From: Brevundimonas sp.
Lineage (GTDB): Bacteria; Pseudomonadota; Alphaproteobacteria; Caulobacterales; Caulobacteraceae
Reading direction: 5' to 3'
Length of the DNA: 49,093 nucleotides
Assembly (NCBI RefSeq): GCF_024711105.1
Contig: NZ_JANJTL010000123.1
Coordinates: 1 to 49,093, forward strand
The translations under genes and the position numbers were made by a program. This document shows, piece by piece, positions 4,164 through 23,341 of the stretch (the first letter of the stretch is position 1; every line of letters begins with the position of its first letter). The notes under the pieces are model-generated. The model was not told where the DNA came from. It was given only the letters and a program-made list of their open reading frames with translations, and ran no database searches.

Positions 4164-4188
4164 AACGGCCAAGCTTAGCCGCGGTTCC
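4164..4188 (-). promoter_or_regulatory. EcfG-type promoter GGAAC-N16-CGTT upstream of entericidin 1
   Basis: + strand reads AACG (4164-4167) N16 GTTCC (4184-4188). Confidence 0.85.
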
Positions 4189-4203
4189 GGTCCCGGAGAA
4201 GCG

Positions 4204-4737
4204 TCAGGCGCCCTGCCCGCCCGCGGCGATGTCGCGGCAGGCCGTGACGAAGTTCGCCAGGGTCTCGGCGTCCGGCGCCTCATAGGGGCCGGCCTGCTGC
4301 GTCCCGTAGAGCGCCGAGATGTCCTCCGTCCGCGGCAGCCGGTCCAGCAGCATGGGATCGATGGCGGCTTCCGCGCGCACGCCCAGTCCCTCGGCCAGGG
4401 TGTCCGCGACCAGGCCGAAGGCCTCGTTGTCGACGCCCAGCGTCAGCCGCTCCTCGCTGCCGATCACGGTGAAGCCGGGCACGTTCACGGTCATCCGCGC
4501 CGGCGCCGACAGGCACGCCATGTGGAACACCTGGTTGTCGGCCTGATCCAGCAGCATCAGGGCCGAACCCTCGCCGCTCGCGATCGGCTCCCAGCGCAGA
4601 TGGGGCGCCTCGGGCGCGGCGGGAGTCTCCGGGGCGGGCGGCGCTTCGGGCGTGTCCTCGGCCCGGTCACAGCCGGTCAGCACCACGGTGGCGGCGAAGA
4701 AGGCGGCGAAGGTCCGGGCGAAATCGCGAGCGCTCAT
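4204..4737 (-). CDS. Putative lipoprotein, function unknown
   Basis: N-terminal hydrophobic segment with lipobox-like VLTGC, then a Pro/Ala/Glu linker. Confidence 0.7.
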   Translation of the reverse strand: MSARDFARTFAAFFAATVVLTGCDRAEDTPEAPPAPETPAAPEAPHLRWEPIASGEGSALMLLDQADNQVFHMACLSAPARMTVNVPGFTVIGSEERLTLGVDNEAFGLVADTLAEGLGVRAEAAIDPMLLDRLPRTEDISALYGTQQAGPYEAPDAETLANFVTACRDIAAGGQGA

Positions 4738-4852
4738 GGCGCTTCATAACGCGAACGCGGGCCATTGGTTACCCAAGGCTTAACGCCTGGAGAGAAGCAG
4801 GGTTAAGGCGCCGCGCAGGAGGGGAATCCGGCGCGTGTCGCCCCAATGTCTG

Positions 4853-4931
4853 ACCACGCCCTCATCTCCCGCGCAGGCCTGCGGCTTCGCCTCCGGCGCG
4901 CGGGGCCCTCTTCTCCCCTGACGGGGAGAAG
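4853..4931 (+). repeat. Left inverted-repeat arm of the DUF559 cassette; contains palindrome cttctcccc-tgac-ggggagaag (4910-4931)
   Basis: Imperfect inverted match to 5301-5377; both begin accacgccctcatct (read outside-in) and end in the same palindrome. Confidence 0.8.
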
Positions 4932-4945
4932 GTTAGCGTCACCGT

Positions 4946-5293
4946 ATGGTGGGGGGACGGATCAGTCGGGCTCGCGAGCTTCGACGGGAGCAAACGGCGG
5001 CCGAGCGCAGGCTTTGGTCCTGCCTTCGCGACCGTGGCCTTGGCGGGTACCGCTGGAAGCGGCAGGTCCCCATTCCGCCGTACTACGTCGACTTCCTCTC
5101 TCCTCAGATCGGTCTAGTCATCGAGGTAGACGGCGGACAACACTCGGCAGATACCCTCCGGGACGCACGCCGCACCGCGGACCTTCATGCCCGCGGCCTG
5201 CACGTCATCCGCTTCTGGAACTACGAGATCATGGAGGATCTCGACGCCGTCTGCCGCACGGTGCTCGCGGCCTGCAAACGTCTCGACCATTAA
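4946..5293 (+). CDS. DUF559 domain protein (Vsr/restriction-endonuclease-like fold)
   Basis: ARELRREQTAAERRLWSCLRDRGLGGYRWKRQVPIPPYYVDFLSPQIGLVIEVDGGQH... RTADLHARGLHVIRFWNYEI, typical DUF559 motifs. Confidence 0.9.
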   Translation: MVGGRISRARELRREQTAAERRLWSCLRDRGLGGYRWKRQVPIPPYYVDFLSPQIGLVIEVDGGQHSADTLRDARRTADLHARGLHVIRFWNYEIMEDLDAVCRTVLAACKRLDH

Positions 5294-5300
5294 GCGAACT

Positions 5301-5377
5301 CTTCTCCCCGTCAGGGGAGAAGAAGGCTCCGCGCACCGGAGCGCAGCGAAGGTCTGCGCGGAAGATGAGGGCGTGGT
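5301..5377 (-). repeat. Right inverted-repeat arm of the DUF559 cassette; contains palindrome cttctcccc-gtca-ggggagaag (5301-5322)
   Basis: Reverse complement aligns with 4853-4931 with scattered substitutions and a ~2-bp length difference. Confidence 0.8.
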
Positions 5378-5419
5378 GCGACCTCGCCAAGCCACCGCGC
5401 CAGCGGCCCCAAACGAAAA

Positions 5420-5443
5420 AGGCCCCGCCGAAAGGCGGGGCCT
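5420..5443 (-). terminator. Rho-independent terminator for entericidin 2
   Basis: Minus strand: aggccccgcc-tttc-ggcggggcct followed by ttttcg. Confidence 0.85.
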
Positions 5444-5464
5444 GATCTGTGTCCTGACGAAGCC

Positions 5465-5602
5465 CTAGTTGGCCGCGTCCTGGGCGGTTTCCTCGACCGC
5501 CTCGCCGGCGGCTTGGACGTCGCGGCCGGCGCCGGCGACGGTGTTGCAGGCGGCCACGGCCAGGGCGGCAGCGGCGGCCATGAAAACAAACGCTTTGCGC
5601 AT
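5465..5602 (-). CDS. Entericidin A/B family small lipoprotein (copy 2)
   Basis: Manual translation MRKAFVFMAAAAALAVAACNTVAGAGRDVQAAGEAVEETAQDAAN*; same 45-aa length as copy 1. Confidence 0.85.
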   Translation of the reverse strand: MRKAFVFMAAAAALAVAACNTVAGAGRDVQAAGEAVEETAQDAAN

Positions 5603-5643
5603 CGGTCGATCCTTTGCAGTTTGGGGAGGTCTGCGTCTCAGGA

Positions 5644-5668
5644 AATGCCTAGGCGGCGCCTTGGTTCC
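5644..5668 (-). promoter_or_regulatory. Near-consensus EcfG promoter GGAAC-N16-CATT upstream of entericidin 2
   Basis: AATG (5644-5647) N16 GTTCC (5664-5668) on + strand; -10 differs by one base; -35 overlaps the 3' end of the kinase gene. Confidence 0.5.
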
Positions 5669-7373
5669 GGTCCGCCTCCGCCCCGGCCGTCGGCTCGGGG
5701 GCTTCGATCTCCGGGGAGGGGAAGGTGAGGCGGGCCAGCACGCCGCCCGCCTCGCCGGACAGAATCTCGGCGCGCCCCCTTAACTGGCGCGCGAAGGCGG
5801 TCATCAGGGTCTGGCCCACGCCGCCTTGACCGTCGACGGGGCCGGGGCCGTCGTCCTCGACCTCCAGCACGCTGTCCTCCTCGCCCCGGCGGAACCTCAC
5901 CTGGAGCAGGCCGCCGCGGCCGGCGAAGGCGTGCTTCTGGGCGTTGGAGATGGCCTCGACCGCCCACAGGGCGATCGGCGCCAGCTTGTCGGGATCCACG
6001 ACGAGGGCGTCGGCTTCGACGCGGGTCTCCACCGCGGGGCCCCGGCCGCTGTCCTGGGCGATCAGCTGGCCGACCAGGTCTTCCAGAAACTGGCCGACGT
6101 CCACCCGCTTGAGGTTCTCGGACTGGTAGAGCGCCCGATAGATCAGCGCGAGCGCGGTGATCCTCTGGCGGGTGTCATTCATGGCCAGGCGGGCGGCGGG
6201 GTCCTTCAGCGCCCGCTGCTGCATGTTGAGCAAGGACGTGATGACCTGCAGGTTGTTCTTCACCCGGTGATGGATCTCGCGCATCAGCCGGTCCTTCTCG
6301 TCGAGCGACTCGCGAAGCGAGGCGTCTCGGGCGACGATGGTGTCGACCATGTGATCCAGGGTGCGGCCCAGGCTGCGGATCTCCGCTGGGCCGTGCCGGG
6401 CCTGGACCGGACGCACGTTGAATCGTCCCTTGGCGTAGATGGCCGCGATCCGCTCCAGATAGAGCAGCCAGCGCACCACCACCCGCTCGGTCACCACCAG
6501 GACGAACAGCAGCGCCAGGCACCAGGTCAGCAGCGGCAGATAGAAGACCCCGGCTGCGTTACCGACAGCCCAGGCGACCAGGCCCTGGCTCGGGATCGAC
6601 AGCACCACCTGGACGTCCCCGTCGGCGAACGGTGAGGCCGTGACGATGCGGCGGTCGCCGCGCGCGTCGACGATGTCGGTCAGCTCCGACCTCAGGCTCG
6701 TTTGCGGCACGCGCCCTTCGGGAAAGGCCTGCCGATCGGTCGCCGTGAGGATGATCCCGTTGGCGTCGACGAGGGCCACCTGGGAGTCTTCCAGGGTCAC
6801 GCCCACGGGACGCTGGGGAGTCACGTCCTCCAGCGGCATCACGGCCAGGAAGACGCCGTCGAACGCGCCCATCGGCCGTTCCGAACGGATGGCCGCCAGC
6901 AGGGCGGGGTTCTCGGAGAAGACTCCGTCGGGCGCGCGCGAGATGACCAGACTCTCGCCGTTCCGGATCCGCTGGAACCACGGCTGGTTGATCAGGGCGT
7001 CGGCGGCCCTCACGTCGCCGGAGGCGCAGGTGACCCGTCCGTTGCGTCCCAGATGGACCAGGGCGTCGTAGGCCTCCAGATCCTGAACCAGCTGCCTCAG
7101 GCGCGGCACGCAGTAGAGGCCGATGGTCTCGGGCCTCAGGGTGCGCAGCATGATCACCGCGCCGTCGATCCGCATCTGGGCGTCGGCGGCGCTGGCGCGC
7201 GCGGCGCGCACCAGCTCCGTGCGGGTCCGCTCCACCTCGTTGTCATAGGCCGTGCGGGATTGAAGGGCGCTCAGCACCAGGATGGGGGCCAGCGCCAGGC
7301 CAAGGGCCACGCCGAGCCGGAAGCGGATGCCCTGAACCCCGGCGCCGAGCCTGAGCTTGCGCCAGGCGAGCAC
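5649..7373 (-). CDS. Membrane sensor histidine kinase, HisKA_2/HWE type (PhyK-like)
   Basis: N-terminal TM, extracytoplasmic sensor region, second TM, HAMP-like segment, then EKDRLMREIHHRVKNNLQVITSLLNMQQR; downstream of ecfG. Confidence 0.9.
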   Translation of the reverse strand: MLAWRKLRLGAGVQGIRFRLGVALGLALAPILVLSALQSRTAYDNEVERTRTELVRAARASAADAQMRIDGAVIMLRTLRPETIGLYCVPRLRQLVQDLEAYDALVHLGRNGRVTCASGDVRAADALINQPWFQRIRNGESLVISRAPDGVFSENPALLAAIRSERPMGAFDGVFLAVMPLEDVTPQRPVGVTLEDSQVALVDANGIILTATDRQAFPEGRVPQTSLRSELTDIVDARGDRRIVTASPFADGDVQVVLSIPSQGLVAWAVGNAAGVFYLPLLTWCLALLFVLVVTERVVVRWLLYLERIAAIYAKGRFNVRPVQARHGPAEIRSLGRTLDHMVDTIVARDASLRESLDEKDRLMREIHHRVKNNLQVITSLLNMQQRALKDPAARLAMNDTRQRITALALIYRALYQSENLKRVDVGQFLEDLVGQLIAQDSGRGPAVETRVEADALVVDPDKLAPIALWAVEAISNAQKHAFAGRGGLLQVRFRRGEEDSVLEVEDDGPGPVDGQGGVGQTLMTAFARQLRGRAEILSGEAGGVLARLTFPSPEIEAPEPTAGAEADRNQGAA

Positions 7374-7375
7374 GG

Positions 7376-7978
7376 TCAGCGCGGTCCGCTTAGCCGATCC
7401 GCCTCTGCGAGGATGGCCCCCATGGCGTCTCCGGCGGCGCGGCCGTCCTGACGGTATTGCCCGCCTTCCAGCGTCGCCTGCAGCGCGCGGCGTGCACGGC
7501 TGACGCGGCTCTTCACCGTGCCGACGGCGCAGTGGCAGATTTCGGCGGCCTCTTCATAGGCGAAGCCGCCGGCGCCAACGAGCACCAGGGCTTCCCGCTG
7601 TTCCGGCGGCAGCTCCTGAAGCGCGCGGCGCAACTCGTCCAGGGCAAGCGGCGCGGACGGGTCGTCCACGGCCACCAGCGTCCGCTCGGCGGCCTCCTGG
7701 TCCAGCTGGGACTGCCGCCAGGACCGGCGCTTCTCGGAATAGAACTGGTTGCGCAGGATCATGAAGGTCCAGGCCTTCATGTTGGTGCCCATCTGGAAGC
7801 TGGCCCGCGCATCCCACGCCTTCATCATGGCGTCCTGCGCCAGATCGTCGGCGGCGGTGGCGTCACCGGTCAGGGTCCGGGCGAAGGCGCGCAGATGCGG
7901 AATGAGGGTGACCAGCTCTTTCTTGAAAGCCGTATCTTCATCCTCTGAGCGCTCCGGTCGGGTCCGGGCCTCGCTCAT
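7376..7978 (-). CDS. ecfG: ECF sigma factor of the general stress response, EcfG/SigT
   Basis: Sigma-70 region 2 (DLAQDAMMKAWDARASFQMGTNMKAWTFMILRNQFYSEKRR) and region 4 (LPPEQREALVLVGAGGFAYEEAAEICHCAVGTVKSRVSRARRAL); next to nepR and phyR. Confidence 0.95.
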   Translation of the reverse strand: MSEARTRPERSEDEDTAFKKELVTLIPHLRAFARTLTGDATAADDLAQDAMMKAWDARASFQMGTNMKAWTFMILRNQFYSEKRRSWRQSQLDQEAAERTLVAVDDPSAPLALDELRRALQELPPEQREALVLVGAGGFAYEEAAEICHCAVGTVKSRVSRARRALQATLEGGQYRQDGRAAGDAMGAILAEADRLSGPR

Positions 7979-8187
7979 GCGCCGCCCTTCTTGCGCTCGT
8001 CGGCCTTCTGCAGGATCGCGAGAAATTCGTCGGGGACCGGCTCGCTCACGACCTCGTCGAACAGGGTCCGAAGGCGCACGCCGATCGCCTGCTGACGGAG
8101 GCGGGCTTCCGCCATGTCGGGCTCACGTCGGGATTGCACGTCCGCTGGTCTCCGGCCGGAGCCACGTTTTTCGTTCATATCAAACAC
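7975..8187 (-). CDS. nepR: NepR family anti-sigma factor
   Basis: IGVRLRTLFDEVVSEPVPDEFLAIL core motif; ATGA overlap with ecfG. Confidence 0.93.
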   Translation of the reverse strand: MFDMNEKRGSGRRPADVQSRREPDMAEARLRQQAIGVRLRTLFDEVVSEPVPDEFLAILQKADERKKGGA

Positions 8188-8223
8188 AGACGCCCCGTTT
8201 TGCCCCGCCGCAACTGACCGAGA

Positions 8224-8248
8224 AACGCCGGGGGGTTGCCGGGGTTCC
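8224..8248 (-). promoter_or_regulatory. EcfG-type promoter GGAAC-N16-CGTT for nepR-ecfG-kinase
   Basis: AACG (8224-8227) N16 GTTCC (8244-8248) on + strand. Confidence 0.88.
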
Positions 8249-8290
8249 GGGATTGCTGCGATTTAATGTGCAGCTTGGCCGCGTGTCGAG

Positions 8291-8315
8291 GGAACCGGTC
8301 GCGACCATAGCCGTT
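8291..8315 (+). promoter_or_regulatory. EcfG-type promoter GGAAC-N16-CGTT for phyR
   Basis: GGAAC (8291-8295) N16 CGTT (8312-8315). Confidence 0.88.
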
Positions 8316-8369
8316 TCACGAGACGATCGGGTCCCGCGCGGGCCTGCACACTGCTGTCGGGGATTTCAT

Positions 8370-9161
8370 ATGAGTCTTGTGGCCAAGCTGGCTCCGCACC
8401 TGCCCTACGTCCGCCGCTATGCGCGGGCGCTCACGGGGGACCAGGCCTCGGGTGACAATTATGTCCGCGCCGCGCTCGAAGCCGTCGCGGCCGGCGAAGT
8501 TCAGCTGAAGGAATCGGTCACGCCGCGCGTGGCGCTGTATCAGGTCTTCCACGCCATCTGGGGCACCACCGGGGCCCAGCTCGAGATGGAGGCGGCCAAC
8601 GCCGGCGACGATCCCAGCCGCCGGCTGCTGCGCATTCCGCCGCGCTCGCGCCAAGCCTTCCTGCTGACCGCGCTGGAAGGATTCACGCCCAGCGAATCCG
8701 CCCAGATTCTCGGCGGCGAAGTGTCCGAGGTCGAACAGCTGATCGCCGAGGCGCAGGCCGAGATCGACGCCGAACTGGCTACCGACGTCCTCATCATCGA
8801 GGATGAGGCCGTCATCTCCGCCGACATCGAGGCGCTGGTGCGCGAACTCGGCCATCGGGTCGTGGCCGTCACCACCACCCGCACGGAGGCCGTGGACGCC
8901 GTCGCCGAGGAGCGGCCGGGTCTGATCCTCGCTGACATCCAGCTGGCCGACGGGTCCTCGGGCATCGATGCGGTCAAGGACATCCTCAAGCGCTACGACG
9001 TGCCGGTGATCTTCATCACCGCCTTCCCCGAGCGCCTCCTGACCGGCGAGCGGCCCGAGCCGACCTTCCTCATCACCAAGCCGTTCCAGCCCGACAATGT
9101 TAAGGCGGCGATCGGCCAGGCCCTGTTCTTCCATCCGGCGCGCGAGCGCGTCGCGGCCTAG
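8370..9161 (+). CDS. phyR: PhyR anti-anti-sigma response regulator (sigma-like domain plus receiver)
   Basis: MSLVAKLAPHLPYVRRYARALTGDQASGDNYVRAALEA... then VLIIEDEAVISADIEALVRELGH...ILADIQLADGSSGIDA...PVIFITAFPE...ITKPF. Confidence 0.96.
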   Translation: MSLVAKLAPHLPYVRRYARALTGDQASGDNYVRAALEAVAAGEVQLKESVTPRVALYQVFHAIWGTTGAQLEMEAANAGDDPSRRLLRIPPRSRQAFLLTALEGFTPSESAQILGGEVSEVEQLIAEAQAEIDAELATDVLIIEDEAVISADIEALVRELGHRVVAVTTTRTEAVDAVAEERPGLILADIQLADGSSGIDAVKDILKRYDVPVIFITAFPERLLTGERPEPTFLITKPFQPDNVKAAIGQALFFHPARERVAA

Positions 9162-9185
9162 GCCAGGCAGGGATCGCAAACGAAG

Positions 9186-9213
9186 AGGGCGGCTCGTTCG
9201 AGCCGCCCTTTTT
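9186..9213 (+). terminator. Rho-independent terminator after phyR
   Basis: agggcggct-cgttcg-agccgccct then ttttc. Confidence 0.88.
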
Positions 9214-9229
9214 CTTGCCTTGGGTCTCG

Positions 9230-9514
9230 TCAGGGCGTGCCCGGCTCTTCGGGCGGTTGCTGACCGGGCGGCGACTGCCGCGCATAATCGCCTTCCGGCA
9301 TGTCGAACGGCTCGGCGTCGGTCGCCTGGCGTGCATTGTGCTGTTCGACGTTCTGGTGGTTGAACAGATAGACCACCGCCATCGCCAGTCCGGACAGGAC
9401 GACGGCCACCACCAGCACCGCCAGGACGGGCAGGCCCCTGCGCCCCTGCTTGGCGCGGTCTTCCGAGACCACGCGCGGCTCGGCGGGAGTGTCGTTCATG
9501 GGGTCGTGGGTCAT
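9230..9514 (-). CDS. Small single-TM protein, function unknown
   Basis: GLPVLAVLVVAVVLSGLAMAVVYLFNHQNVEQHNARQ; EcfG promoter upstream. Confidence 0.75.
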   Translation of the reverse strand: MTHDPMNDTPAEPRVVSEDRAKQGRRGLPVLAVLVVAVVLSGLAMAVVYLFNHQNVEQHNARQATDAEPFDMPEGDYARQSPPGQQPPEEPGTP

Positions 9515-9553
9515 GGAGCGCCTGCGGTCATCAGCTTTGCGTCAGGCCCTACC

Positions 9554-9579
9554 AACGCCCGGAAATCCGCCGCCGTTCC
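9554..9579 (-). promoter_or_regulatory. EcfG-type promoter GGAAC-N17-CGTT for the 94-aa membrane protein
   Basis: AACG (9554-9557) N17 GTTCC (9575-9579) on + strand. Confidence 0.75.
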
Positions 9580-9617
9580 GAATTCCGCGGACGCGCGAAA
9601 AAAAGTTGGACCTGCCC

Positions 9618-9642
9618 GGAACCGAACTTCGGGAACGCCGTT
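9618..9642 (+). promoter_or_regulatory. EcfG-type promoter GGAAC-N16-CGTT for the intergenic sRNA
   Basis: GGAAC (9618-9622) N16 CGTT (9639-9642). Confidence 0.88.
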
Positions 9643-9649
9643 TCTAAGC

Positions 9650-9760
9650 TTGCGGAGGCGGCGACGCCCCCCCGACTTGAGGCTGATTAGTTTCAGCCTG
9701 CCGCCTCCGCGCTCTATTTCTCGATGAACTGACGGGCCCCTTGCGGGGCCCTTCTTTTTT
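9650..9760 (+). ncRNA. Candidate GsrN-like EcfG-dependent small RNA
   Basis: No ORF; 11-bp outer stem gcggaggcggc (9652-9662)/gccgcctccgc (9700-9710), C7-containing single strand (gacgcccccccgac), inner 7-bp hairpin aggctga-tcagcct, terminator gggcccc-ttgc-ggggccc-ttcttttt. Confidence 0.75.
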
Positions 9761-9765
9761 GCCCG

Positions 9766-10236
9766 TCAGGCGCCGGGCGCCGCCTCGATCAGCAGCTCCA
9801 CCCGGCGGCGCACCGGCTCGGCCACGCCGCCCTGGACCGCGCCGTCCTCGCCGGCCGCCATCACCTCGAACACCGGCGCGGGCCAGCCCTCGGCCGCCAG
9901 GGCCTCGGTCACCGCCATCGCGCGCCGCTCCGACAGCGTCAGGTTCCTCGTCGCCCCGCCCGAGGCGCTCGCCAGGCCCACGACCTGGACCCGCCGGATC
10001 TCGCAGCCGCTAAGCCTCTGCGCCGTCGTGGCGATCAGCTCGCGCGCCGGCCCCGTAAGGCTCGCATTCCCTTCATCGAAATAGACCGGCAGCGTCGTCG
10101 CCACGCAGACCGCCGGCTCGGCCACCAGTTCGCTTCTGTCCCGAAACAGGCTCCGGGTCGTGTCGCACCCGGCCAGCCCCATCGCCGCGACCAGCGCAGC
10201 TCCCACCATCACCCTCACGTCCAGCCCTCCAAGCAA
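9766..10236 (-). CDS. OmpA-family lipoprotein
   Basis: Lipobox LAGC; VYFDEGNASLTGPARELI...VQVVGLASASGGATRNLTLSERRAMAVTEAL OmpA-C-like. Confidence 0.8.
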   Translation of the reverse strand: MLGGLDVRVMVGAALVAAMGLAGCDTTRSLFRDRSELVAEPAVCVATTLPVYFDEGNASLTGPARELIATTAQRLSGCEIRRVQVVGLASASGGATRNLTLSERRAMAVTEALAAEGWPAPVFEVMAAGEDGAVQGGVAEPVRRRVELLIEAAPGA

Positions 10237-10240
10237 GACA

Positions 10241-10272
10241 AAGGGCGGCCCGCCTCGCGACGAACCGCCCTT
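10241..10272 (-). terminator. Hairpin terminator downstream of the glycine-zipper gene
   Basis: aagggcgg...ccgccctt, short U-containing tail on minus strand. Confidence 0.5.
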
Positions 10273-10290
10273 CCTCCGAGCCTTCCGGCC

Positions 10291-10620
10291 CTAGTTCCGC
10301 CGCGTCCCGTCTTCCCAGTAGCAGTCGCCTTCCGGGTAGCAGTAGTAGTACCGGCCATAGCGGCTGTCCCACTGGCGAGACAGGTTGCGGGCTTCGCGGT
10401 CCTGTTGCGAACCGCGGACGGCCCCGGCGATGCCGCCGACGACGGCGCCGATGGCGGCCCCGCGTCCGGCGTTGCCGTCGCCGACGTTATTGCCGATCAC
10501 GGCGCCCGCGAGGGCCCCGAGGGCGGCGCCGCCGGCGGCGTTACGCTCAACATTACCCGTCGAGGTACAGGCGCCGGCCACAAGAGCGGCGCCCGCGACG
10601 GCCACAAAAACCTTCTTCAT
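10291..10620 (-). CDS. Glycine-zipper 2TM lipoprotein
   Basis: Lipobox VAGAC; GGAALGALAGAVIGNNVG..GRGAAIGAVVGGIAGAV. Confidence 0.85.
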   Translation of the reverse strand: MKKVFVAVAGAALVAGACTSTGNVERNAAGGAALGALAGAVIGNNVGDGNAGRGAAIGAVVGGIAGAVRGSQQDREARNLSRQWDSRYGRYYYCYPEGDCYWEDGTRRN

Positions 10621-10652
10621 GAGATCGTCTCCCTATTCGCTCCCCAGGCGAG

Positions 10653-10677
10653 AACGCTGGATTGCGGCCACGGTTCC
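10653..10677 (-). promoter_or_regulatory. EcfG-type promoter GGAAC-N16-CGTT for the glycine-zipper lipoprotein
   Basis: AACG (10653-10656) N16 GTTCC (10673-10677) on + strand. Confidence 0.85.
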
Positions 10678-10765
10678 CTGACTATCACTCCGGCCAAGGT
10701 TGCGTTAACCTTTTCGGCGGCCTCGCCTGCGTGGGCGTGGCGGGTGAGTTCAAGGGGGCTTGAGT

Positions 10766-11113
10766 ATGGCTGACGACGGAGAACACGGGGGACGTCCCGC
10801 GTGGGAACGCGGCCGGCGCAGAAGCGGCGGTAATCCTCTGGTTGGGCTGATTGTGACCCTGCTGGCGCTGTTCGGTGCCCTGACGGCGGGTCTCGGGATC
10901 GCCGAGCGCTCGGTCGGCGCGGCGGGTGATCGGATCGACGGCTGGATTTCCACTGCGTGGAACACGGTCACCGGCGCGGCTGACGACGTAGACGAGGAAG
11001 CTGCCGCGGCGGCCGAGGAGGTGGTCGAGGAATCCGGCGAGGCTGTCCAGCAGGCTGGCCAAGCCGTGGAAGGCGCCGCCGACGAGGCCGCCGAAAACCT
11101 CGCTCGCGACTAG
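10766..11113 (+). CDS. Small membrane protein with acidic Ala/Glu-rich helix, function unknown
   Basis: NPLVGLIVTLLALFGALTAGLG TM followed by EEAAAAAEEVVEESGEAVQQAGQAVEGAADEAAENLARD. Confidence 0.75.
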   Translation: MADDGEHGGRPAWERGRRRSGGNPLVGLIVTLLALFGALTAGLGIAERSVGAAGDRIDGWISTAWNTVTGAADDVDEEAAAAAEEVVEESGEAVQQAGQAVEGAADEAAENLARD

Positions 11114-11135
11114 GCCCCTGTCGGCCTGAGCCGCC

Positions 11136-11160
11136 GGAACCTCAGGCTTCGCCATTCGTT
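11136..11160 (+). promoter_or_regulatory. EcfG-type promoter GGAAC-N16-CGTT for the diacylglycerol-kinase-like/metallophosphoesterase pair
   Basis: GGAAC (11136-11140) N16 CGTT (11157-11160). Confidence 0.82.
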
Positions 11161-11168
11161 CGGGCGAC

Positions 11169-12080
11169 ATGGACCTCAGCCCAACGTCCGAGCCTCGGGC
11201 GCTGACCCCTCATGCGCGGCTCGACCGGATCGAGGTCATCGTCAACCCGAAGTCGGGCAGCGTCTCCGCGACCGCGGCCGAGGAGCTTGCGGCCGTCCTC
11301 GACGAGCTCGGTCTGAAGGCCAACATCCACATCTTCGAGGGCGGCCGTCTTACGTCCCTGCTCGATCAGGTTTTCGGCGCTGAGCCGGATCTGGTCATCG
11401 TGCTGGCGGGCGACGGGACCGTGCGGGCCGTCGCGGCCCGCGCTGGACCGACGGGTCCGCTGATCGCGCCCTTGCCTGGCGGCACCATGAACATGCTGCC
11501 CAAGGCGGTCTACGGCGTGACGGACTGGAAGGAGGCGCTGGGCAAGGCGTTGTCTAGGGGATGCGAGCAGCCCATTCCCGGCGGCCGCGTCGGCGAGGAG
11601 CCCTTCTACTGTGCGGCTATTCTCGGCTCGCCCGCGCTCTGGGCGCCGGCGCGCGAAGCCATCCGGGAAGGCAAGGCGCGCCTGGCCTGGCTCTACGGGC
11701 GCCGCGCCCTGAAGCGGGCCTTCTCGGGGCGGGTGCGATTCCGGCTGGACCGCGGACCGCTCCGCCGCGCCGAAGCGCTCGTCCTGATCACTCCCCTGAT
11801 CTCGACGGCCGTGGAGAAAGCCGATGGCCTCGAGGCCGCCGTCATGACGCCGGCGCGGGCCGGCGAGGCGTTCCGCATGGCCGCCCGTGCGCTGTTCGCG
11901 GACTGGCGCAGCGATCCGGCCGTGGCGACCCAGGTGGCCCGGCGCGTACACGCCTGGGCGGGGTCTCGAATTCCGGCCATCCTTGACGGCGAGACCATTC
12001 GTCTGGACGATTTCGCCGAAGTGACCTTCGAGCCTGTCGCCTTCCGCGCGCTCGCACCGCCACCGGAGCCGACAGTTTGA
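11169..12080 (+). CDS. Diacylglycerol/lipid kinase catalytic-domain protein
   Basis: VIVNPKSGS...DLVIVLAGDGTVRAVAAR...PLPGGTMNMLPK. Confidence 0.9.
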   Translation: MDLSPTSEPRALTPHARLDRIEVIVNPKSGSVSATAAEELAAVLDELGLKANIHIFEGGRLTSLLDQVFGAEPDLVIVLAGDGTVRAVAARAGPTGPLIAPLPGGTMNMLPKAVYGVTDWKEALGKALSRGCEQPIPGGRVGEEPFYCAAILGSPALWAPAREAIREGKARLAWLYGRRALKRAFSGRVRFRLDRGPLRRAEALVLITPLISTAVEKADGLEAAVMTPARAGEAFRMAARALFADWRSDPAVATQVARRVHAWAGSRIPAILDGETIRLDDFAEVTFEPVAFRALAPPPEPTV

Positions 12081-12868
12081 TCGGACGCATCTACCAGCTT
12101 TCGGACATCCATTTCGGGGTCGAGAACAAGGCTGCGGTGGAGGCCGCGCTCGCCCACTGTCACGAGACGCCGCCTGACCTGGTGCTGATCACCGGGGACA
12201 TCACCCAGCAGGGATTCAGGGATGAGTTCGAGGCAGCGGCGCGCTGGATCAAGGCGATGCCGGAACCGGTCTTCGTCACGGTCGGCAATCACGACGTCCC
12301 CTACTGGAACGCCTATGACCGGCTGTTCCAGCCATGGAAGCGGTTCGAGACCTCGACCGGCCACCCGGCCCACGACCATCAGTTCGAGACCGATAAGCTG
12401 ATGGTGCGGGGCGTGACCACCGCCCGCGGCTGGCAGGCCCGGCTGAACTGGTCCAAGGGCGTGATCGATCTGGATCAGACCCGCCGCGCGGCGGAGGCTC
12501 TCGCCGCCACCCCGCGGGACCACCTACGCATCCTGGCCTGCCATCATCCGCTCATCGAGATGATCGGCGCGCCCATGACCGGCGAGGTGAAGCGGGGGCG
12601 GGCGGCGGCCGAGATTTTCGCCGGGGCCGGCGTCGACATCATCGCCAGCGGGCACGTCCACGTGCCATTCGCCCTGCCGATCGGTGTCGGCGACCACCGC
12701 TGCTATGCGGTCGGGTGCGGAACGCTGTCGGTGCGGGAGCGTGGCATGGCCCCGAGCTTCAACTGCATCACCTGGAGCGAAGCCGAGATTTGCGTGACGG
12801 CGCTGGCCTGGACCGGCTCTCGGTTCGAGGCGCAGCGGACCTGGAATCTCGATCGGCGGGTCGACTAG
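12077..12868 (+). CDS. Calcineurin-like metallophosphoesterase
   Basis: LSDIHFG, LITGDITQQG, VGNHDVP, ACHHPL, SGHVHVPF; overlaps the upstream gene. Confidence 0.92.
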   Translation: MIGRIYQLSDIHFGVENKAAVEAALAHCHETPPDLVLITGDITQQGFRDEFEAAARWIKAMPEPVFVTVGNHDVPYWNAYDRLFQPWKRFETSTGHPAHDHQFETDKLMVRGVTTARGWQARLNWSKGVIDLDQTRRAAEALAATPRDHLRILACHHPLIEMIGAPMTGEVKRGRAAAEIFAGAGVDIIASGHVHVPFALPIGVGDHRCYAVGCGTLSVRERGMAPSFNCITWSEAEICVTALAWTGSRFEAQRTWNLDRRVD

Positions 12869-12880
12869 TCCCAAAGAAAA

Positions 12881-12908
12881 AGGCCGCGGCCCTGACCGGC
12901 CGCGGCCT
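12881..12908. terminator. Bidirectional hairpin terminator
   Basis: aggccgcggcc-ctgacc-ggccgcggcct between convergent genes; A-rich on the left side gives a U-tract for the minus strand. Confidence 0.8.
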
Positions 12909-12933
12909 GTATTTCAGCGTGTCTGGTCAGTCG

Positions 12934-13104
12934 CTAGACGCGCGGTCCCCGGAACCTGCCGGCGACCAGCGAGATCACGAACAACACAATGAAGATGATG
13001 AACAGGATCCACGCGATGTCCATCGACAGACCCGCCACTCCGCCGAAGCCGAGAGCCAGGGCGATGAGGGCGATGACCAGAAAAATGACGGCCCAACGCA
13101 GCAT
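12934..13104 (-). CDS. DUF1328-like small membrane protein
   Basis: Manual translation [56 protein letters not shown]. Confidence 0.87.
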
Positions 13105-13155
13105 TTCTTTTCTCCTCCAGTTTCGGAAACGCCGCGTCGCGGCATCCGGGAGGGG

Positions 13156-13180
13156 AACGTCGATACGGCAGGGCTGTTCC
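13156..13180 (-). promoter_or_regulatory. EcfG-type promoter GGAAC-N16-CGTT for the DUF1328 gene
   Basis: AACG (13156-13159) N16 GTTCC (13176-13180) on + strand. Confidence 0.87.
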
Positions 13181-13194
13181 CGCCAAGCTGAAGT

Positions 13195-13815
13195 TTAGCG
13201 GGGCGCCGGATAGGTCCAGCCGGGGGCTGCGGACTGGGCCGCGGAGAGCTGCGAGGCGGCGAAGCGCCAGTTGGCCAGACGGTCGAACCAGGCCTCCAGA
13301 AAGCCTTTCCGGTCCTGCTTGTGGTCCAGGTAGTAGGCGTGCTCCCAGACATCGCAGACGAGAAGGGGAAAGCCCTCGTCCTCGGACAGGGTGTTCATGG
13401 CGTCGTGGGTCGAGGGGACCGCGAGCGCGCCATCCTTGAGCGTGATCCACACCCAGCCTGAGGCGAAGTGGCCAGCGCCTTCGGTGACGAAGTCCTCGCG
13501 CAGCTTGTCCAGTCCGCCGTAGGCCTCGATCAGGCCGGCCAGGTCGCCCGAAGGCGCCTCATGGTCCGGCGCCATGCACTCCCAGAAGAAGCCGTGGTTC
13601 CAGGTCTGGGCGGCGTTGTTGAACAGCTTGCCCGGCCCGGCGTCGCGGATGACCTCCTCAAGCGAGGCAGGCCGGCGGCCTTCCTTCGCAAGCAGATCGT
13701 TGAGGGTGTCGACGTACTTCTTGTGGTGCTTGCCGTGGTGAGTTTCGAGCGTGGTCCGGGACAGGACCGGCTCCAGCGAGGCGTGCGGATAGGGGAGGTC
13801 GGACAGAACGAACAC
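13195..13815 (-). CDS. sodB: Superoxide dismutase, Fe/Mn family
   Basis: THHGKHHKKYVDTLN, NNAAQTWNHGFFWECM, DVWEHAYYLDHKQDRKGFLEAW. Confidence 0.95.
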   Translation of the reverse strand: MFVLSDLPYPHASLEPVLSRTTLETHHGKHHKKYVDTLNDLLAKEGRRPASLEEVIRDAGPGKLFNNAAQTWNHGFFWECMAPDHEAPSGDLAGLIEAYGGLDKLREDFVTEGAGHFASGWVWITLKDGALAVPSTHDAMNTLSEDEGFPLLVCDVWEHAYYLDHKQDRKGFLEAWFDRLANWRFAASQLSAAQSAAPGWTYPAPR

Positions 13816-13845
13816 GGGCTTACTCCTTCGGCGCTTGACTCGAAA

Positions 13846-14244
13846 TCAGCGCCGGGGCCGCCGTGTTCCCCTCGACTTCTCGGTGAAAGCCGCCGCCACC
13901 ATGGTGGCGAGCGCAGGATTCCTCAGGAAGATCCACCCGGCCGCCAGGCCCGCTACCGTGCCCAGGATGGGCCGGGTGCGGAACAGCTGGATGGCGCGAT
14001 CGGTGAGGCCTTCGGGCTCGTCCTCCTCGGCTTGGTCCGGGGCGGCCTTGCCCTTGAGGACAAGGGCGCACACGCCCGCTGCGATCGCGAAGATCAGCGC
14101 GGTCAGGGCCGCCGCCGCGGCCGGGATCAGGACGATGGCGAGGCCGTAGTAGATGGCGAAGCCGAGCGCGACCACGGCCACGCCGACCGAGGCCGTCATG
14201 GCGGCGGTCGACGCCGCCTTGACGACCAGCCCCCGGCCAATCAT
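13846..14244 (-). CDS. Putative membrane protein (holin/YqjE-like), function unknown
   Basis: Two hydrophobic segments plus a C-terminal TM; overlaps the DUF883 gene. Confidence 0.65.
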   Translation of the reverse strand: MIGRGLVVKAASTAAMTASVGVAVVALGFAIYYGLAIVLIPAAAAALTALIFAIAAGVCALVLKGKAAPDQAEEDEPEGLTDRAIQLFRTRPILGTVAGLAAGWIFLRNPALATMVAAAFTEKSRGTRRPRR

Positions 14245-14630
14245 CAGCGCCGACCGCCCGCCAGCAGCAGGCCGATGATGACGCCGACGCCCAGCGCGAT
14301 GCCGGTCGATTGCAGGGGACGCTCCTGAACGCGCTCGGACAGGTAGCGCTGATATTCGTCGAAGCGCTCGGAGGCTTCATCGTAGTACTCGCGGCCACGG
14401 ACCTGGGCCTCGTCGTAGTACCGGCGGGCGCGGTCGCGCAGCTCGGCGGTGCGGGCCCGGACGCTCTCGTCGGCCTGGGCGGCAAGGCCGCGCAGGCGCT
14501 CGGCCTCCTCGCGGCCAACGGCCTCGACGTCGTTCTTCAGGTTCTTGAGGTCGCGCTTGACGTTGTCGCGGGCGCGGCTGCGGGGCTCGCCATCGGCGGT
14601 CGCGGCGGTCGCGGCGGGGGCACGGGCCAT
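14244..14630 (-). CDS. DUF883 (ElaB/YqjD-like) family protein
   Basis: Amphipathic helix DNVKRDLKNLKNDVEAVGREEAERLRG... and C-terminal ERPLQSTGIALGVGVIIGLLLAGGRR; start at 14630 preferred over 14663. Confidence 0.85.
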   Translation of the reverse strand: MARAPAATAATADGEPRSRARDNVKRDLKNLKNDVEAVGREEAERLRGLAAQADESVRARTAELRDRARRYYDEAQVRGREYYDEASERFDEYQRYLSERVQERPLQSTGIALGVGVIIGLLLAGGRR

Positions 14631-14682
14631 GTCATTGTCTCCGGCTAAGCTTGTCCACGCCATATGGGCGCATCTCGTTCTG

Positions 14683-14707
14683 AACGCTAGAGGTTAGGCA
14701 GAGTTCC
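14683..14707 (-). promoter_or_regulatory. EcfG-type promoter GGAAC-N16-CGTT for the DUF883 operon
   Basis: AACG (14683-14686) N16 GTTCC (14703-14707) on + strand. Confidence 0.86.
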
Positions 14708-14764
14708 GGTGCGCGCCGGCGACGGTCGCTGGCGCGGGACCCCTCCGGCGCCTATGAGAACCGC

Positions 14765-15451
14765 ATGATCGACTTTCTGTTCCCGCCGGCCGAGCCGGTC
14801 ACCCTGCCGATCCGCGGAGCCAGCGCCCGGCTGCCGGTGCGGCGCATCCTGTGCGTCGGCCAGAACTACGCCGCGCACGCGCGCGAGATGGGGGGCGATC
14901 CGGAGCGGCGGCCGCCGTTCTTCTTCTCCAAGCCGGCCGACGCCCTCGTGCCGCTCGGCGGCCAGGTGCCCTACCCGAGCGAGACGCGGGACCTGCATCA
15001 CGAGGTCGAACTGGTGGTCGCCCTGGGTCATGGGGGGACCGATGTCACGCCCGACGAGGCGCGGTCCATGATCGCCGGCTGGGCCGTCGGGGTCGACCTG
15101 ACCCGGCGCGACATCCAGGCCCAGGCCAAGAAGGACGGCCGGCCCTGGGACGCCGCCAAGGGCTTCGACTTCTCGGCGCCCATCGGCGAGGTGGTCCTGA
15201 AGCGCGACCTGCCCGAGGCGCACGGCGCGATCCGGCTGTCGGTCAACGGCGAGACGCGTCAGGCGGGCGACCTGTCGGACATGATCTGGAGCCCCTTCGA
15301 GGTCGTCGCCCAGGCCTCGCGCCTGTGGCGGCTCATGCCCGGCGACCTGATCTTCACCGGCACGCCCGAGGGCGTCGGGCCGCTGGTCCGCGGCGACGAG
15401 GTGCGCGCCGAGATCGATGGCCTGCCCGCCCTGTCCTTCACGGTGGTCTGA
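14765..15451 (+). CDS. Fumarylacetoacetate hydrolase family (fumarylpyruvate hydrolase-like)
   Basis: ILCVGQNYAAHAREMG, PPFFFSKPADALVP, LHHEVELVVALG, PGDLIFTGTPEGVGPL. Confidence 0.9.
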   Translation: MIDFLFPPAEPVTLPIRGASARLPVRRILCVGQNYAAHAREMGGDPERRPPFFFSKPADALVPLGGQVPYPSETRDLHHEVELVVALGHGGTDVTPDEARSMIAGWAVGVDLTRRDIQAQAKKDGRPWDAAKGFDFSAPIGEVVLKRDLPEAHGAIRLSVNGETRQAGDLSDMIWSPFEVVAQASRLWRLMPGDLIFTGTPEGVGPLVRGDEVRAEIDGLPALSFTVV

Positions 15452-15460
15452 GGCGCGAAG

Positions 15461-16090
15461 ATGATCCTGCACGGCTATTGGCGCTCGGGGACGTCCTACC
15501 GGACGCGCATCGCGCTGAACCTCAAGGGCGTGGCCTATGAGCAGCGGACCCACGACCTGCGCCAGGGCGAGCAAAAATCCGAGACCTATCTGGCGCTCAA
15601 TCCGCAGGGACTGGTTCCCGCGCTCGAGCACCAGGGCTGGGTGGTGACCCAGAGTCTGGCGATCCTCGGCTGGCTGGACGAGCGGTTCCCCGAGCCGCCG
15701 CTGCTGCCGCGAACCAGTCCGGAGGACCGGGCCGAGGTGCGCGCCATGGCGACCCTGGTCGCGTGCGACATCCATCCTCTGAACAACCTGAGGGTGCTCA
15801 AGGCGGTGAAGGGCCTGGGCGGCGACACCGACGCCTGGGCCGAGCAGTGGATCCGGCCCGGGTTCGACGCGCTTGAGCGGCTGATCGAACAACGCGGCGG
15901 CGGCTGGAGCTGGGGTGAGGCGCCGACCATCGCCGACTGCTGCCTGATCCCGCAGGTCTATTCAGCACGGCGGTTCAACGTCGATGTGTCGGCCTGGCCC
16001 CTGATCTCGGCGGTCGACGCGAGGGCGCAGCAGCATCCCGCCTTCCAGGACGCCCACCCGGATGTCCAGCCGGACGCGGACGGGGCCTGA
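15461..16090 (+). CDS. maiA: Maleylacetoacetate/maleylpyruvate isomerase (zeta-class GST)
   Basis: WRSGTSYRTRIALNLKGVAYE, ALNPQGLVPALE, CDIHPLNNLRVL, PTIADCCLIPQVY. Confidence 0.88.
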   Translation: MILHGYWRSGTSYRTRIALNLKGVAYEQRTHDLRQGEQKSETYLALNPQGLVPALEHQGWVVTQSLAILGWLDERFPEPPLLPRTSPEDRAEVRAMATLVACDIHPLNNLRVLKAVKGLGGDTDAWAEQWIRPGFDALERLIEQRGGGWSWGEAPTIADCCLIPQVYSARRFNVDVSAWPLISAVDARAQQHPAFQDAHPDVQPDADGA

Positions 16091-16136
16091 GCCCCAAGTC
16101 CCGGGCGCGGCGGTCGGCCCGCCGCGCCTGTCCTCC

Positions 16137-18257
16137 TCAGAAGGTCGTGGTCAGCGACACCCGGAAGGCCCGCGGGGAGCCGGGGGTGATGTTGTTGTTG
16201 CTGTGGGCGGTCGACCAGTAGGTCGCGTCGAACAGGTTCTCGACGTTCATCTGGACCCGCACGCGCGGCGAGACGTCATAGAAGACGGCCGCGTCCACCC
16301 GCGTGAAGCCGGGAAGGGTCACGGCGTTATCGATGCCGGTGAAGACTTCGCCTTGGTGGATCACGCCGAGGCCCGCGGCCCAACGTTCATCGAACTGGTA
16401 CCGGTTCCACAGCGATGCGCTGTGCTCGGGGACCAGCGGCACGGTCCGGCCGGCCGGCGCAGCGGTCGTCGCGCTCGTGATTTCGGCGTCCTGCCAGGCG
16501 TAGCCGCCCATGATCTCCCAGCGGTCGGTGACCCGGCCGCTGATCCCCAGTTCGAGCCCCTCGGTGCGCTGCTCGCCGGTCTGGACGATCACTCCCGGGT
16601 TGGACGGATCGTTCGCCGTCGTGTTGGTGCGCTCTAGGCGGTAGAGGGCGGCCGACAGCATCAGCCCCTCGACGGGCTCCCAGCGCGCGCCGATCTCCTG
16701 GTTGGTGAACTCCTCGGGCTCCAGCGTCAGGGTCGAGGCGGAGAGGGAGGCGAACTGGTCTCCGGACGCAGGCAAGAAGGATCGCGCATAGCTGGCGTAG
16801 AAGCTGAGCGCCTCGGTCGGCTGATAGATCAGGCCCAGGCGTGGCGAGACCATCTCGTCGGTGCGCTCGAATACGGCGCCCGTGCGATTGTTGGTCAGGT
16901 CGAGACCGAAGGAGTCGAAGCGCAGGCCGGCCACGACCTGCCACTGCGGCGTCAACTCGATCTGGTCTTGAACGTAAACGGCGAAGACCGTCGCCTCACC
17001 GTCATTGTCGGCGTCCGAGACGCTCTGCTGGAAGGTGATCGGGGTCCCGAACAGGGTCGGAGAGGCGACCGGCACGGTGATTGAGGTGGCGGTCCCGCCG
17101 AAATAGCCCGTCTCGCGGAAGTTGTGGCTGTCCTGCCGGCCCAGCTCGAAGCCGGCGAGCAGGCGATGGCCGATCGATCCGGTGCGCGTCTCGTAGATGA
17201 AGTCGGTCTGGGTGAAGAGGTTCTGCCGTTCGGTCAGGTTGTTGTAGGCCGAGATCGACACGGTCGTACCGCCGCCGCCGACGGCGCCCGGGAAGACGTT
17301 CTGGTAGAATTTCTCATAGTCGGCGAAGACCGTCCGGTTGCGGATGATCAGTCCGTTCCATCCGACCCACTGGACGCCCGCGCTCAGCCAGTCGACCTCT
17401 GCCGTCGAATAGCTCTGGTCCGGATCGCCGAAGAAGGTCGAGACATCGGTTTCGAGCGGGCGGCCCATGAAGGACGGCACGCCCCGGTCGACGGTGCGGT
17501 CGTCCTCGAAATGCTCATAGGACACCACGAGCGACAGCTGGTCGTTCGGGATGAAGGCCACCGTCGGATTGACGCCCCAGCGCTCCAGCCCGACGAAGTC
17601 GCGATAGCTCTCTGAATCCTCGAACATGAGGTTGAGGCGTCCCGACGCCATCGGGCCCAGCGGCTGGTTCAGGTCCAGCGTCGCGCGGCGATGGTCGAAG
17701 GAGCCAAGCTCAAGCGACAGGCCGCGTTCGACCGACGAGAAGGGCGTCTTGGTCACGCGGTTGATGATCCCGCCGCCGCCGCCACGGCCAAAGATCATGG
17801 CGTTCGGCCCGCGCAGGACTTCGACGCGCTCCAGGTTGTAGAGGTCGCGGAAATACTGGACGTCGTCGCGCACGCCGTCGGTGAAGAAGTCCGCCGTGGT
17901 CGCCTGGCCGCGGATGGTCGGCGCGTCGCGGTGACCCTCGCCCTGGCCCATGGTCACGCCGGGCACGTAGCGGACGACGTCAGCCATGCTGTCCATGGCC
18001 TGGTCCTCGATGGCCTGGCGCGTGACGATGGCGATGGACTGCGGCGTGTCTTCCAGTTCGGTGTCGGTGCGGGTGGCCGTCGCGGTGCTCTCGACTGCAT
18101 AGCCCTCGGCGCGCGCGCGGCCATAGACGGCGACCTCGGCGACCGTTGTGGGCTGGCCGTCCTCGATGTCCCCAGCCTCGTGAGCAAGGACGGGACCCGA
18201 GACGGCGATTCCCGCCGCGGAAACGAGCAGCAGGCGGCGGTACGAAGCGAAATGCAT
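16137..18257 (-). CDS. TonB-dependent siderophore receptor
   Basis: TATRTDTELEDTPQSIAIVTRQAIEDQ plug, LRGPNAMIFGRGGGGGIINRVTK, C-terminal PRAFRVSLTTTF. Confidence 0.92.
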   Translation of the reverse strand: MHFASYRRLLLVSAAGIAVSGPVLAHEAGDIEDGQPTTVAEVAVYGRARAEGYAVESTATATRTDTELEDTPQSIAIVTRQAIEDQAMDSMADVVRYVPGVTMGQGEGHRDAPTIRGQATTADFFTDGVRDDVQYFRDLYNLERVEVLRGPNAMIFGRGGGGGIINRVTKTPFSSVERGLSLELGSFDHRRATLDLNQPLGPMASGRLNLMFEDSESYRDFVGLERWGVNPTVAFIPNDQLSLVVSYEHFEDDRTVDRGVPSFMGRPLETDVSTFFGDPDQSYSTAEVDWLSAGVQWVGWNGLIIRNRTVFADYEKFYQNVFPGAVGGGGTTVSISAYNNLTERQNLFTQTDFIYETRTGSIGHRLLAGFELGRQDSHNFRETGYFGGTATSITVPVASPTLFGTPITFQQSVSDADNDGEATVFAVYVQDQIELTPQWQVVAGLRFDSFGLDLTNNRTGAVFERTDEMVSPRLGLIYQPTEALSFYASYARSFLPASGDQFASLSASTLTLEPEEFTNQEIGARWEPVEGLMLSAALYRLERTNTTANDPSNPGVIVQTGEQRTEGLELGISGRVTDRWEIMGGYAWQDAEITSATTAAPAGRTVPLVPEHSASLWNRYQFDERWAAGLGVIHQGEVFTGIDNAVTLPGFTRVDAAVFYDVSPRVRVQMNVENLFDATYWSTAHSNNNITPGSPRAFRVSLTTTF

Positions 18258-22254: not shown

Positions 22255-22399
22255 GCGCAGTGCTCCGTCGCTGGTCCCGCGGAGCCGCGCGTGGGACCCG
22301 TTCAGCGACAGCGATCGTCCGGGAGTCCGGACGGCGGCCGATCGCGTCGCTGCGACGGAAGGTCCGCGCCCCTATCTGGTCCCGGACCAGGGCGAGCGA

Positions 22400-22497
22400 C
22401 GTGAACGGACAGGCATTCGGACTTGCGGCTCAGTCGAGCCGCCTACCGCTGCGGGCACAGTGGCGGATTTGGACCGCCTTCCCCCGTGCCGTTCGTA
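22400..22497 (-). ncRNA. Cobalamin (AdoCbl) riboswitch upstream of btuB
   Basis: Minus strand: gggggaaggcggtccaaatccgccactgtgcccgcagcggtaggcgg...gccgcaagtccgaatgcctgtcc, matching the B12-box core; candidate P1 gaacgg/ccgttc. Confidence 0.9.
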
Positions 22498-22534
22498 CTC
22501 AGTATCGCAACGCCGCGGTCGAGCGGCAAGCGGC

Positions 22535-23341
22535 CTAGAACCAGCCCAGGCCCATCGCGCCGAGGCCGAGCACGCCGACGACGATCCGCCACCAGGCGAA
22601 GGGGGCGAAGCCGTGGCGGCTGACGAAGTCCAGCATGGTCCTCACCACGAAGGCGCCGCTGATGAAGGAGACGACGAAGCCGATGGCGACGACCTGCAGG
22701 AAGTCGGCGGTCAGGACATCGCGCGTCTCCCACAGGCTGAGCGCGAAGGCCCCCACCATGGTCGGGATGGCCAGGAAGAAGGAGAACTCCGCCGCCGCCC
22801 GCTTGTCGACGCCCGACAGCAGGCCGCCGACGATGGTCGCGCCGGAGCGCGACACGCCCGGGATGATCGAGAGGCACTGGTAGAGGCCGATCAGCGCCGC
22901 CGAGCGGAAGGTCAGGGCCATGGCGTCATGCTCGCGCGGGGCGGGCGCATGGCGCTCAACCAGCAGCAGGGCGACGCCGCCGACAATCAGGCTGATGAAG
23001 ACGAACAGCGAGTTGAACAGGACCGCGAAGAGCACGTCCTTGAGCAGCAGACCGACGACGGCCGAGGGCAGGAAGGCGATGAGCACCGCGATGGCGAAGC
23101 GGCGAGCCGACGGATCCGTCCCGAACAGGCCGAGCAGCACTTTCCACAGGCGCACGAAATAGAGGACGACCACGGCCAGAATGGCGCCCAGCTGGATCAT
23201 GTAGATGAACGGATCCCAGCGCTCGTCCGCGAGGCCCAGCATCTCCTTGGTGATCAGGAGATGGCCAGTGGAGGAGACCGGAATGAACTCGGTCAGTCCC
23301 TCGACAAGACCGAGAATGATGGCCGCGAGCCAGTCCGCCAT
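22535..23341 (-). CDS. uppP: Undecaprenyl-diphosphatase
   Basis: LGLVEGLTEFIPVSSTGHLLI, CLSIIPGVSRSGATIVGGLLSG. Confidence 0.96.
   Translation of the reverse strand: MADWLAAIILGLVEGLTEFIPVSSTGHLLITKEMLGLADERWDPFIYMIQLGAILAVVVLYFVRLWKVLLGLFGTDPSARRFAIAVLIAFLPSAVVGLLLKDVLFAVLFNSLFVFISLIVGGVALLLVERHAPAPREHDAMALTFRSAALIGLYQCLSIIPGVSRSGATIVGGLLSGVDKRAAAEFSFFLAIPTMVGAFALSLWETRDVLTADFLQVVAIGFVVSFISGAFVVRTMLDFVSRHGFAPFAWWRIVVGVLGLGAMGLGWF

Follow-up and report, generated by a model that had tools for sequence, protein, structure and literature searches.

The window, that is the whole 49,093-nucleotide stretch of DNA analysed here, contains a region whose protein domains mark it as the core locus of the general stress response (GSR) in alphaproteobacteria. 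A sensor histidine kinase with HisKA_2/HWE domains (5649-7373, minus strand), PhyK-like by position, adjoins ecfG/sigT, the gene of the general stress sigma factor (7376-7978, minus strand; Sigma70_r2/r4_2 and PhyR_sigma2-like domains), which is followed by nepR, encoding the anti-sigma factor (7975-8187, minus strand; PF18557), and by phyR, encoding the GSR anti-anti-sigma response regulator (8370-9161, plus strand, ATG at 8370-8372; PhyR_sigma2, PhyR_sigma-like and Response_reg domains). The encoded PhyR matches that of B. aveniformis at 83%, in agreement with a Brevundimonas origin. Scanning for exact EcfG promoters (GGAAC-N15..18-CGTT) revealed ten in the window against 0.98 expected; they span 4164-16408 on both strands, and one precedes phyR (8291-8315, plus strand), with others upstream of nepR-ecfG, a 94-aa ORF, a Gly-zipper protein, a DAGK-like protein and further positions. 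One member of this local cluster, which by its motifs is a stress-regulon cluster, drives a putative small RNA gene lying about 490 bp past the phyR stop codon and 2 kb from ecfG, so that the location near phyR asserted by an earlier note on this DNA holds, with EcfG, NepR and PhyR all recognized by their domains. Elsewhere in the window, a Cobalamin riboswitch (RF00174, 42.9 bits) was found at 22391-22542 on the minus strand.

The promoter of the small RNA gene, GGAAC-N16-CGTT at 9618-9642 (plus strand), is an exact EcfG consensus, as had been claimed, and its spacing varies little among 61 relatives (N16 in 54, N17 in 7). Transcription would start at G9652, which is +10 after CGTT here and +9 in Caulobacter, giving an RNA of about 105 nt (9652-9758) as delimited by the RF01529 match and the Caulobacter register described below. 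In the predicted fold, an 11-bp outer stem (9652-9662 as 5' arm, 9700-9710 as 3' arm) encloses a C7 loop (gacgcccccccgac, 9663-9676), which forms part of a conserved and putatively target-recognizing C-rich loop (GACGCCCCCCCGACTTGAG, 9663-9681), and a 7-bp inner hairpin (9680-9686/9693-9699), and the gene closes with an intrinsic terminator made of a 7-bp G-C stem and a T-run (9734-9760; stem-loop 9734-9751). The earlier note had drawn the same stem, loop, hairpin and terminator, and every coordinate that it gave was borne out. The folding energy of -56 kcal/mol (z -5.18) was equalled by none of 200 shuffles, and by computation the CCCCGAC loop needs as little as 0.9 kcal/mol to open. The stretch had also been described as free of open reading frames; this stands for credible genes, but two mechanical ORFs on the plus strand (9215-9727 and 9450-9647) overlap the sRNA and look like noise.

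The covariance-model search proposed for this element was answered by an existing model, Rfam RF01529 (CC3552), which matches 9654-9751 end to end at 68 bits (E 8e-9 over the window), above its gathering score of 50 bits. The genome holds no second copy of it. Of 249 Caulobacteraceae genomes, 165 contain RF01529, and these represent 17 of 22 genera; among 289 genomes sampled across the class, it appeared in this genus only. Both the linker and the terminator hairpin of the window's sRNA fall a few nucleotides short of the model consensus, and it is the shortened 3' linker (GATGA-ACTGAC against GATGATGCCACTT) that places its score below that of most relatives. A structural alignment of 54 homologues further strengthened the fold: 98.4% of cells are paired (100% in the outer stem, 96% in the inner hairpin), with 60 double-change cells and double changes at five of the eight aligned pairs of the inner hairpin, while none of 500 shuffles did as well and slid controls paired in only 30-53% of cells. 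The stem and C-rich loop are thus kept across Caulobacteraceae with covariation, where their loss among relatives would have spoken against a GsrN-like regulator. Within the sRNA, conservation is highest in the 5' arm of the outer stem and next in the loop, which reads GACG-C6..8-GACTTGAG in 47 of the 54 relatives, identical save for the number of Cs (6-8). Several Brevundimonas genomes also gave a second, weaker RF01529 match (29-37 bits, L226-L231); these were rejected as paralogues, being one conserved coding-like sequence with neither promoter nor terminator, which on reading its letters we take to be pyrB. At the level of sequence, the promoter, structure, terminator, accessible C-loop, family membership, synteny and conservation of the gene can therefore be regarded as established.

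In Caulobacter crescentus, GsrN (ccna_R0081) is expressed from a sigma-T promoter, carries a 5' C-rich loop and is processed to a 5' isoform of 51-54 nt, its landmarks being six Cs, a cleavage at C53|T54 and T64 (PMC5869019). Only one register of L007, the Caulobacter RF01529 sequence, accommodates them all, with its start at the ninth nucleotide after CGTT (GCGAAGGCGGCGACGCCCCCCGAC), and the reverse complements of the published interaction sites UCAAGUCGGGGC and GGGGGCGU (Table 1 of PMC5869019) coincide with the RF01529 loop. On these two grounds RF01529 is taken as GsrN, CC3552 and ccna_R0081 being very probably the same gene. The position homologous to C53|T54 predicts an endonucleolytic processing point at 9705/9706 and hence, we infer, a 54-nt 5' isoform (9652-9705).

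The window's gene shares with C. crescentus GsrN the EcfG/sigma-T promoter directly upstream, the 5' C-rich loop between stem and hairpin, the size, the terminator and the conservation across Caulobacteraceae, together with sequence homology to the Caulobacteraceae homologues, as seen in the alignment and in the L007 register. It differs in having C7 instead of C6 and a shortened 3' linker, in offering no visible katG target site and a loop complementary to the phyR ribosome-binding site, and in adjoining phyR where the C. crescentus gene is distal, although proximity to ecfG-nepR-phyR is the arrangement found in non-crescentus Caulobacteraceae. Homologues beside ecfG-nepR-phyR had already been reported in Brevundimonas (Tien et al. 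2018, PMC5869019), and the element is therefore an ortholog of a known sRNA, a further Brevundimonas member of a known family and not a discovery; we hold this identification, which agrees with the GsrN-like regulator first proposed from the letters, with little doubt. The GsrN-like RNAs proposed for Rhizobiaceae (PMC5869019) have the EcfG promoter, the GSR-locus position and the exposed C-rich loop in common with it, but no sequence homology to them was found, the class-wide sample having returned RF01529 in this genus alone. The gene as such is an expected ortholog, and the value of the analysis lies in the comparison of targets.

Here, the best-supported local candidate is the ribosome-binding site of phyR. 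The window's phyR leader (ctgctGTCGGGGatttcatATG) carries GUCGGGG at 8356-8362 (plus strand), ahead of the start codon, and this motif is the exact complement of the loop segment CCCCGAC (9670-9676). Across 81 Brevundimonas genomes the (G)UCGGGGA is near-invariant in a leader that is otherwise unconserved, its columns holding G in 68 genomes (70 with two rows re-registered), U in 80, C in 80, the four following Gs in 81, 81, 81 and 77, and A in 80, whereas the phyR leaders of Caulobacter and Phenylobacterium have CGGGAGGGG in its place. Opening the phyR site would cost 5.2 kcal/mol, set beside a 7-bp duplex worth -12.8 kcal/mol and the small cost of opening the loop. Building on these observations, a mechanism can be proposed in which EcfG transcribes GsrN from the 9618-9642 promoter under stress, the fold would hold the C7 loop accessible between outer stem and inner hairpin, and the RNA would be processed at 9705/9706, after which the loop (CCCCGAC/CGCCCC) would pair with G-rich mRNA leaders and alter their translation; stress induction, processing and translational effect are here carried over from the studied ortholog. 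Pairing at phyR would cover the ribosome-binding site, and PhyR synthesis would thereby be dampened once EcfG is active. If true, GsrN in Brevundimonas would feed back on the very sigma-factor pathway that controls it, acting on a target not known for Caulobacter GsrN and opposite to the absence of feedback in C. crescentus. What is new here, the conserved complementarity between the C-rich loop and the phyR ribosome-binding site, suggests such feedback; the complete proposal, in which pairing at phyR exerts negative feedback on the GSR while the katG branch is absent, is one that we consider possible yet doubtful.

We lean instead towards an account in which (G)UCGGGGA before phyR is no more than a ribosome-binding site peculiar to the lineage, complementary to the loop by coincidence. 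Weak pairing of GGGG with the anti-Shine-Dalgarno sequence is possible and would suit this account. In three genomes (G107, G180 and G207; loci L304, L305 and L306) the sRNA has lost its C-tract while phyR keeps UCGGGGA, altered loops in G213 and others are accompanied by no compensating change at phyR, and cognate loop-phyR pairs were not significantly better in energy than permuted ones (p 0.12). In C. crescentus, moreover, GsrN left transcription from a sigma-T-dependent reporter unchanged, even though nepR-sigT mRNA co-eluted with it (PMC5869019). An incidental match is harder to reconcile with its specificity, since at least six contiguous pairs between the cognate loop and the phyR ribosome-binding region were found in 69 of 74 genomes, as opposed to 6 of the 103 starts of neighbouring genes in those loci and 5 of 24 nepR leaders. 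The U and C that come before the G-run are also near invariant, though unnecessary for ribosome binding, and in G251 (L067/L301), the sole genome with loop CCCCAACU, the ribosome-binding site reads AGUUGGGG, an 8-bp perfect match with both partners changed, which at the sequence level constitutes one clear compensatory change.

The katG part of the analogy fared less well. Pairing in Caulobacter joins the seven nucleotides at the very start of the katG mRNA to seven of the loop, among them four of its six cytosines; this is a property of a C. crescentus target and not one by which the authors defined homologues (PMC5869019). That GsrN acts in the same way here, with the loop pairing at the katG mRNA start and KatG raised, would fit a loop that is the same as in Caulobacter and a genome whose katG (L130) is preceded by a region of OxyR type. 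The 110 nt upstream of this katG, however, hold no G4 tract, and its leader forms a duplex with the loop of -9.4 kcal/mol that is worse than shuffles (z +1.7). With start codons assigned automatically by a simple rule, G4 tracts occur in 4 of 29 Brevundimonas katG leaders against 19 of 29 in Caulobacter (Fisher p 1e-4, a value that ignores shared descent), whose leaders often have a tract reading (T)CGGGG at about positions -38 to -46. The katG site is clearly not genus-wide in Brevundimonas, the katG branch is probably absent there, and katG activation in the window's genome is not supported, so that we judge the C. crescentus mode of action unlikely in this lineage. As the loop is nearly unchanged while katG, the one validated target, lacks its site, other targets must hold the loop. 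Finally, that the sequence is only a terminator or attenuator of neighbouring genes would suit the intrinsic terminator at its end and its place between two genes, but both of these genes (9230-9514 and 9766-10236) lie on the opposite strand and the sRNA's own EcfG promoter is kept at a fixed distance in relatives, which makes this reading extremely improbable.

Other candidates for the target set were tried and rejected. The nepR leader carries GGGGCGTC, an 8-nt loop complement (8189-8196, minus strand), which is not conserved in relatives. Genome-wide, GTCGGGGGG sites showed no enrichment, numbering 20 against 32 for the reversed control and lying mostly inside genes. Of 94 matches to GTCGGGG-N4..12-ATG, about half of which were inspected, only a handful fell at plausible gene starts, those being presumably of a PtsN-like protein, a TonB-dependent receptor and an M16-like peptidase by our reading of the sequence.

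Variants of the RNA were also observed in related lineages. In a B. diminuta-type clade, a syntenic EcfG-driven RNA keeps the linker and terminator while its loop is rewritten (AUUCCCCCGG and similar), and the RF01529 search misses it; the loci concerned are L042, L052, L063, L092, L240, L255, L259, L260, L266, L275, L277, L279 and L288. At L279 and L288, the phyR ribosome-binding site carries GGGGAACG or GGGGAAU, which the rewritten loop matches. The three loci L304, L305 and L306 likewise hold a syntenic EcfG-driven RNA, devoid of a long C-tract, in which the GATGATGCGACTT linker is kept; because it persists where the C-tract is lost, this linker may have a function of its own.
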